A stretch of DNA of 64,000 bases from Chloroflexota bacterium (GTDB lineage Bacteria; Chloroflexota; Dehalococcoidia; Lucifugimonadales; JACPCL1): positions 1 through 64,000 of the forward strand of contig JACPCL010000034.1 in the NCBI GenBank assembly GCA_016179765.1. The letters run 5' to 3'. Positions 36,398 through 47,590 of the stretch are shown one piece after another. Position numbers and translations under genes: made by a program. How positions within the stretch are numbered: position 1 is the stretch's first letter; the number at the start of each line of letters is the position of its first letter. The notes beneath the pieces are model-generated. The model had not been told where the DNA came from. It saw only the letters and a list, made by a program, of their open reading frames with translations, and made no database searches.

Positions 36398-37690
36398 TCA
36401 CGACCCGCGGTACACCTCCGTCTCCGGGTAAATTGCAGCCCAGTAGAACCAGAGGCTGTCTACATGGAGCAGTGGGGGCAGGCGCTCCCCCGCTAGTGGA
36501 CCCTCCATTGCCTGGCCCAAGATACTCCAGCGGCTTCCCGTCTCGTTGTCTTTGAAGGCGCCGTCCCGCCACTGAAAAGTGAGGTGCTTTCCCCTCACCT
36601 GGGGGATGAATGCGGAGGCGGCGCCCACGGCCCGGGACTCGCTCACCCTCGGCTGGTCTAGTGAAGAGGCTGTTGAAGGTTCGTAGAAGATGACCATCTC
36701 CCTTCTACCCACAGCATCGTGGATCACCCGCTCTACGGCCAGTTCCCGGAACGGGTAGGCCCTTGCTGCCCCTTCGTACCGAATGCCCAGCACCCGTTCC
36801 ATCAGCGGCAAGCGGGGGTCGACGGCGTCGCTGAACAGGAAAGGCCAGGAAGAGGTATCGTACTCCTCGTAGGGGTTGGCGTAATGGCTACCTCTCGGGC
36901 CCACCAACACCTTGCCGCCAGGGTAGGCCTCCTTGAAGTCACGGTAAGCAACCACTTGGGAGGGAAGTTGCTCTAGGGTGGTTCCAACCATAGCACCCAT
37001 GATAGCCTGCGCCGTGCCCTGCTGCCACCAGGACTCTGTCTCCCGGTCCCACATGACAAGGTTGCTTTGCCGCAGGAGGCCGCTGACGCCAAAGGTGAGG
37101 GTCTTGCCCTGTACTGTGCGGCCAAAGACCATGGCCGTGTTGCACAGGGGTCACCAGGTGACGGCAACGGGTACCCCTCCCACCACGTCGTTGACCACCT
37201 CGTGAGAGACAAGAATCGTCTGCGGATAGGCCCGCGCGTCGCTATCAATCTCCACCACAATCACCGGCTCCAAGGGAAACATGCGGCCATCGGCCTCAGC
37301 AGTGCTCTCAAGGTGAGGTTCGTAGATAGGGGGAATGGCGTCCCGCATCAGGCCCAGGAACCGTATCTCTTCGGGAACCACCACCCGCCGGGAGAAGTCC
37401 GTTTTCCACTGATACGGAAGGTACGGTAGGTTGAACATGCCAGTGACTTCAGCAGAGGAAGTGGTACTGGTAGGCGTGGCTGGCGGGGAGACGGGGGCAC
37501 CTGACGAGGCGCCGAGGAAGGACCGCAGGCAGCCACCACAACCCACGCCATAGCAAGCAAAGCGGTCACCCGCTCGACCTTCGCCATGTCCCCGCCTCTC
37601 AAGTGAAGGAAGAATACCTCCCCAATGAGATGCTGCGCCGAGGTTAAGGGTACCGTCAGAAGGGGCGGGTATGAGATGGCGTCCAGACAT
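36398..37690 (-). CDS. DUF3179-like protein, candidate selenoprotein read through TGA at 37153-37151
   Basis: ORFs 37151..37690 and 36398..37132 are in the same frame, separated by one TGA: ...HEVVNDVVGGVPVAVTW-[TGA]-PLCNTAMVFGRTVQGKTLTFGVSGLLRQSNLVMWDRETESWW. Downstream hairpin CUGUGC-aacac-GGCC-AUGGUCUUU-GGCC-GCACAG. Confidence 0.7.
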
Positions 37691-45885: not shown

Positions 45886-46740
45886 TCACCGCTCCACCGG
45901 GAACCCCACGATGCTCCCCCACTCCGTCCACGAGCCGTCGTACACCTTCACCTCCTGGTAGCCCAGCAGGTAGCGCATGGCAAACCAGGCCAGGCTCGCC
46001 CGGTGGCTCAGTCGGCAGTACACCACCGTCTCGCCTGCTTCGGGGATCACGCCTACACCTCTGAGCAATCGGCCCATCTCCTGGGGTGATTTGAAAGTAT
46101 CGTCGTCATTCAGCAGCTCCCGGAAGAAGAGGTGCACCGCCCCGGGGATGCGGCCTGCCCGCTCCGCGCCGTGGTCAAAGCCGCCCGGCCCGGTCACCCG
46201 TTGCCCGCTGTACTCCTCGGGCGTCCGCACGTCCAGCAGCACACGACCCGCCTTGCCCAGGCCCGCCCGCACGGCGTCCCGCCCCATGCGGCTGGACTCC
46301 TCCCTAGGCGTGGGCACATAGGCGGCTGGCTTGAAGACCGGCGTTTCTTGGAACAGGGGACGGCCTTCGGCCTTCCAGCGAGTGATGCTGCCGTCCAACA
46401 TGCGCACGTCCCGGTGGCCGCACATCGTTAGCGTCCAGAAGGCGTACATCCCGAACTGCACGGGCCGCCCGTACAGCACCACGGTCGTATCGGCCGTCAC
46501 GCCCAGAGCGCCCAGACGCCGCGCCATAGCCGCGGAGGACGTGAACTCCCGGTCCGTGGGGTGCCACAGGGCCGCCTTCCAGTACCACCAGGCCGCGCCG
46601 GGCACGTGCCCCTCTCGGTACGCCGTATCCTCGCTTGCCGACGACACCTCAATGACCCGCACCTTGGGGTCGCCGAGATGCTCCGCCAGCCAGTCGGCGG
46701 AGACGAGACGGGAGCCAAGACCCGAAGCGCCAGTAGTCAT
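45886..46740 (-). CDS. Thiosulfate sulfurtransferase (tandem rhodanese)
   Basis: 284 aa; VSADWLAEHLGDPKVRVIEVS; catalytic loop ETVVYCRLSHRASLAWFAMRYLLGYQEVKVYDGSWTEWG. Confidence 0.92.
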   Translation of the reverse strand: MTTGASGLGSRLVSADWLAEHLGDPKVRVIEVSSASEDTAYREGHVPGAAWWYWKAALWHPTDREFTSSAAMARRLGALGVTADTTVVLYGRPVQFGMYAFWTLTMCGHRDVRMLDGSITRWKAEGRPLFQETPVFKPAAYVPTPREESSRMGRDAVRAGLGKAGRVLLDVRTPEEYSGQRVTGPGGFDHGAERAGRIPGAVHLFFRELLNDDDTFKSPQEMGRLLRGVGVIPEAGETVVYCRLSHRASLAWFAMRYLLGYQEVKVYDGSWTEWGSIVGFPVER

Positions 46741-46840: not shown

Positions 46841-47590
46841 ATGCCCTTCATCCAGGAAAAGGACAAACTGCCCCTTAAGGACAGGCTGAGGAAAGACCTG
46901 AAGAGCGAGGTAAAGCTGCGCCTCTTCACTCAGCGCACCTTCGGCCTCACCATCCCAGGCAGGGAATGCCTCCACTGTGAGGACACCCAGAAGCTCATGG
47001 AGGAGCTGACCGCCCTCTCCCTCAAGCTGAAGCTGGAGATCGTGGACTTCTACTCCCAGGCCCAGGCCGTCAAAGAGGCCGGCGTGGAGCGCATTCCGGC
47101 CCTGGTCATGTCCGCAAATGGCTCCACCAACGTCAAGTTCTATGGCATCCCCTTGGGACTGGAGTTCGCCGCCCTGCTGGAGACCATCGTCACCCTATCG
47201 CGCGGCGTCAGCCCCCTGGCGTTGGAGACTCGCAAAAAGCTGAAGCAGCTCAAAAGCGCCGTCCACATTCAAGTCTTCGTCACACCCACCTGACCGCACT
47301 GCCCGCAACTGGCCCGTGTGGCCTACGCGATGGCTCTAGACAACCCCAACGTCCGCGCCGACGTGGTGGAGGTCCAGGAGTTCCCCCTGCTGGCCCAGCG
47401 GTACATGGTCTCCGGCGTCCCCAAGACCATCATCAACAACAAGGTGCAGTTCGTTGGCGCCGTGCCGGAGCCGATGCTCATAGACTACGTGCTCAAGGCG
47501 GTGGGGGTGGAGGCGAAGGAGCAGCAGCCCTCCGCCATAGCGGTCGCCCCGGAGGTGGGGCCAAGCACGCGGGCGGGCGCGGGAAGGTAG
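46841..47590 (+). CDS. Glutaredoxin-like / protein disulfide oxidoreductase, candidate selenoprotein read through TGA at 47291-47293
   Basis: ORFs 46841..47293 and 47318..47590 are in the same frame, separated by one TGA: ...LKSAVHIQVFVTPT-[TGA]-PHCPQLARVAYAMALDNPNVRADVVEVQEFPLLAQRYMVSGVPKTIINNKVQFVGAVPEPMLIDYVL. N-terminal domain keeps CLHC. Confidence 0.75.

Follow-up and report, generated by a model that had tools for sequence, protein, structure and literature searches.

The gene at 46841..47590 on the forward strand of the window (the whole stretch of Chloroflexota DNA that was analysed, 64,000 nucleotides) very probably encodes a selenoprotein, a glutaredoxin-like protein disulfide oxidoreductase (PDO) of two thioredoxin folds in which selenocysteine (Sec) would replace the first, nucleophilic Cys in the CPxC site of the C-terminal fold. 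This reading draws on the reading frame, the pattern of Sec/Cys exchange among relatives, purifying selection, the decoding genes of the genome and covariation in a downstream hairpin, all of them obtained by sequence comparison.

An in-frame TGA at the C-terminal active site

The frame starts with an ATG at 46841, which has a ribosome-binding site of the GGAGG type directly 5' of it, and ends with the TAG at 47588..47590 (forward strand); the closest relative, the homologous locus L022, ends at the equivalent codon, after ...TRAGSGR. Translation of 46841-47590 gives 249 amino acids with one TGA within the frame, at 47291..47293 on the forward strand, which corresponds to residue 151 (Sec151). 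In the C-terminal thioredoxin fold (VFVTPT-U-PHCP), the TGA takes the exact place of the first active-site Cys. An earlier reading made from the sequence alone (hereafter, the sequence-only reading) had proposed a frame with a single TGA at just this Cys, and translation and alignment bear this out. Both folds were observed to have a CxxC-type site: CLHC in the N-terminal fold (46967..46978, forward strand), where most aligned relatives also carry CxxC, and UPHC in the C-terminal fold, for which the family form is CP[YH]C or UP[YH]C. The two motifs had been named beforehand and appear in the translation as claimed. The same reading had begun the second half at 47318; its frame was correct, but 47318 is an internal GTG and the frame continues straight from the TGA. 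When all in-frame TGAs of the 64-kb window were ranked by the codon usage to either side of them, the one at 47291-47293 came top of the eight that passed.

The whole protein scored 237.5 bits against TIGR02187 (PDO_seleno_TRX) over residues 6-220, above the curated cut-off of 185, and the PDO/glutaredoxin-like name that it had been given is thus right. Pfam Thioredoxin_3 matches it in two stretches. It also matches the Pyrococcus PDO structures (P. furiosus 1a8l, 9.5e-35; 1j08, 8.6e-36), in alignments that span nearly the whole folded length and match the TGA to the first Cys of CPYC in the archaeal proteins. The archaeal and Aquifex PDOs (Pyrococcus 1a8l and 1j08; 2ayt, 2ywm) are alike in having two tandem thioredoxin folds, each with a CxxC; their C-terminal site, however, is CPYC with Cys, whereas the window protein is predicted to have Sec at that first position. 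A remote relationship was seen with the double thioredoxin fold of the AhpF N-terminal domain (1hyu, 1zyn). The score against TIGR03140 was 57 bits, under the cut-off, and the window protein is without the reductase domain that is fused in AhpF.

The gene is adjoined by a divergently oriented gene for a two-domain rhodanese-type sulfurtransferase (45886-46740, reverse strand), which is the only neighbour kept beside it in L022 (upstream, 82% identity). Elsewhere in the window, a DUF3179 selenoprotein candidate is found on the reverse strand (36401-37438, TGA 37153-37151; PF11376, 315.9 bits; VTW-U-PLCNTA), and it is probably the one that the sequence-only reading counted as its first. There are three DUF3179 copies in the genome, with one in-frame TGA each, and DUF3179 with UxxC/T is an already listed selenoprotein family.

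TGA and Cys codons among the relatives

Homologues were searched for in 295 genomes of the same class and in GTDB contigs. Counting the window, 24 loci in 23 genomes had TGA at exactly this codon, at identities of about 37-81%; L022 and L023 are at 79-81% and the most divergent TGA loci at about 37%. The codon is TGC or TGT in every other full-length relative that was inspected, and neither TAA nor TAG occurs at the Sec codon among the homologous loci compared.

The homologues also vary at their remaining active-site residues. The Sec homologues L065-L066, L068-L069, L071-L073 and L052 have lost the N-terminal CxxC and retain UP[HY]C, which would fit an N-terminal site that Sec forms can do without. 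In the Cys homologues L054, L055, L081 and L083 Ser replaces the second active-site Cys (CPYS, CPHS, CRFS), which suggests that they are monothiol variants. Genome G083, of the same order, has two PDO paralogues (L043 and L064), each of which has TGA at its active site.

Sec-decoding genes

The window's genome (G000; 2.29 Mb) contains a tRNA-Sec (65.1 bits; reported by ARAGORN as tRNA-SeC, anticodon TCA), SelA (537 bits) and SelB (340 bits over its pieces), genes whose absence, by the sequence-only reading, would have counted against a selenoprotein. No SelD was found over the cut-off in this 94.8% complete assembly; the best match, L019, was rejected as its sequence is that of a thiamine-monophosphate kinase (ThiL-like). 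Given the completeness of the assembly, and since both closest relatives have a SelD, which itself contains an in-frame TGA, its absence here is likely to be an assembly gap.

The survey was extended to the genomes of the homologues. tRNA-Sec at 61 bits or more was present in all 21 surveyed TGA genomes, and SelD in 19 of them, nearly always with its own in-frame TGA. Seven of the 36 Cys genomes were without a tRNA-Sec at this threshold (at least 61 bits). In four of these seven, G157, G010, G038 and G113, neither SelA nor SelD was found over the cut-off either. G157 shares the window's order; in the tree, its Cys gene L038 adjoins the window's trio with SH-aLRT 84.

A hairpin downstream of the TGA

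We identified a candidate bacterial SECIS at 47304..47329 (forward strand) from its fold and from third-position covariation at 47314/47320 across the TGA loci. In the fold, a lower stem of CGC (47304-47306) with GCG (47327-47329) and an upper stem of GGCC (47311-47314) with GGCC (47320-47323), the latter starting 17 nt after the UGA, surround the loop CGUGU (47315-47319). This hairpin had been proposed from the letters of the sequence and proved to be the minimum-free-energy fold of 47301-47330, while the alternative pairing CCGCAC/GUGUGG, also proposed, was seen in the centroid of a 50-nt stretch. The stem is short and the folding energy ordinary (z = -0.02 for 50 nt, -0.51 for 30 nt). Since folding energy alone is unremarkable, the support for the SECIS is comparative and not energetic.

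With the T of the TGA numbered 0, the upper stem joins positions 20-23 to 29-32 (GGCC/GGCC in the window). Two Ala codons fix pairs 21-31 and 22-30, and pairs 20-32 and 23-29 join third-codon positions. The latter two are both Watson-Crick in 20 of the 24 TGA genes versus 8 of the 27 Chloroflexota Cys genes (Fisher p = 0.0002, a value that ignores sequence relatedness). For the closing pair 23-29, 19 TGA genes have C-G, L062 has A-U and L070 has G-C. Both L062 and L070 are divergent, and their placement amid Cys genes in the tree speaks for a stem restored under selection. In L071-L073 the hairpin is reshaped as CAGCGUC-GUU-GGCGCUG. The Arg codon of the loop is AGG, which permits an additional A-U pair, in 12 of the 24 TGA genes versus 1 of the 27 Cys genes, where it is mostly CGC; the window's own loop is the CGUGU given above. 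A covarying hairpin just downstream of the UGA is thus present, as is looked for in a bacterial SECIS, and we regard it as a candidate element.

These results bear on whether, through suppression or an altered genetic code, the TGA could stand for Cys or Trp. The alignment of the TGA with the Cys of relatives would fit such a reading, but the genome has tRNA-Sec, SelA and SelB, tRNA-Sec accompanies the TGA in every surveyed TGA genome, the hairpin covariation goes with the TGA, and in G157 the presence of Cys for Sec coincides with absent machinery. We therefore consider insertion of a residue other than Sec to be very unlikely.

Selection on the downstream half

In a comparison of the window gene with L022, the 91 codons 3' of the TGA showed 85% amino acid identity, with 8, 6 and 32 differences at first, second and third codon positions respectively, and dN/dS was about 0.17 downstream of the TGA and 0.23 upstream. 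By this comparison, the half downstream of the TGA is under purifying selection. The sequence-only reading had argued against a decayed gene from the conservation of both halves, and had named frameshifts or other stops downstream in relatives as something that would refute the selenoprotein. The dN/dS values and the shared terminal stop in L022 agree with its argument, and in the relatives that share the TGA codon the downstream half was found intact.

Termination at residue 150 followed by a second product from the GTG at 47318 has little to commend it: a 90-aa ORF does start at this GTG, but the conserved active-site segment PHC lies between the TGA and the GTG and would be missing from the product, and the Cys relatives have a single continuous protein, so that two separate proteins are highly improbable. 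A decaying gene, truncated by a nonsense mutation or an assembly error at the Cys codon, would take just one substitution from TGC or TGT to TGA, but this is refuted by the recurrence of the same TGA in 24 loci from many families and separate assemblies and by a downstream half conserved without a further stop or frameshift, and it retains practically no probability.

Discussion

A Sec-containing PDO is the reading that we favour. With regard to the actual insertion of Sec, the catalytic cycle and the substrates, we infer a scheme in which the UGA at 47291-47293 would be read by SelB carrying Sec-tRNA-Sec under the direction of the hairpin some 17-30 nt further on. Thiol-disulfide exchange would then be catalysed at UPHC by way of a selenenylsulfide with C154, and the CLHC of the N-terminal fold probably relays electrons. 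By analogy with its PDO relatives in archaea and Aquifex, the protein may have a redox role in the cytosol.

Sec in this family has been described before. A 2026 inventory lists the TIGR02187 UxxC family as a selenoprotein family by high-confidence prediction (PMC13188914), under the label 'homolog of AhpF N-terminal domain (Grx-like domain protein)', ABB15282.1 (PMC13188914; 2022 review PMC9312934). By the curated cut-off, the window protein belongs to the same family as these selenoproteins, and it shares their UxxC motif, its predicted Sec being likewise at the first position. A 2006 survey already had the family in Carboxydothermus hydrogenoformans and Symbiobacterium, and gave Chloroflexi only three selenoproteins in three families (PMC1794560); the host of the window gene, in contrast, is an uncultured Chloroflexota lineage. 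Chloroflexota are unmentioned in both the 2026 inventory (PMC13188914) and the 2022 review (PMC9312934), and our literature search found nothing specific on selenoproteins of SAR202 or Chloroflexota, or on glutaredoxin-like ones of Chloroflexi. The window gene is a well supported Chloroflexota addition to an already catalogued selenoprotein family, and it is unsurprising because Sec in TIGR02187 is already listed.

A maximum-likelihood tree, built quickly from 57 sequences with the Sec column excluded, requires eight changes of the Sec/Cys label, at least two of them forced by well-supported branches; many of its inner branches are weak, and the counts give no direction. The chances seem to us evenly balanced that Sec and Cys have replaced one another several times in the PDO of this class, the SECIS being a minimal hairpin of 4-5 bp imposed via silent codons. 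The silent choices proposed to shape it are the third position of Ala and AGG for Arg. If true, the PDO family would be a tractable case for watching the gain and loss of Sec at one active site.

Standard gene calling cuts the protein at the UGA, and the active site is lost. As the Sec form is common among the surveyed genomes, this truncation makes it likely that the redox annotation of Chloroflexota metagenome bins is systematically wrong for this gene. The principle is known, as is Sec in this family; the repeated Sec/Cys exchange, together with the covarying hairpin, makes the family a compact natural data set on how a SECIS is fitted into coding sequence.
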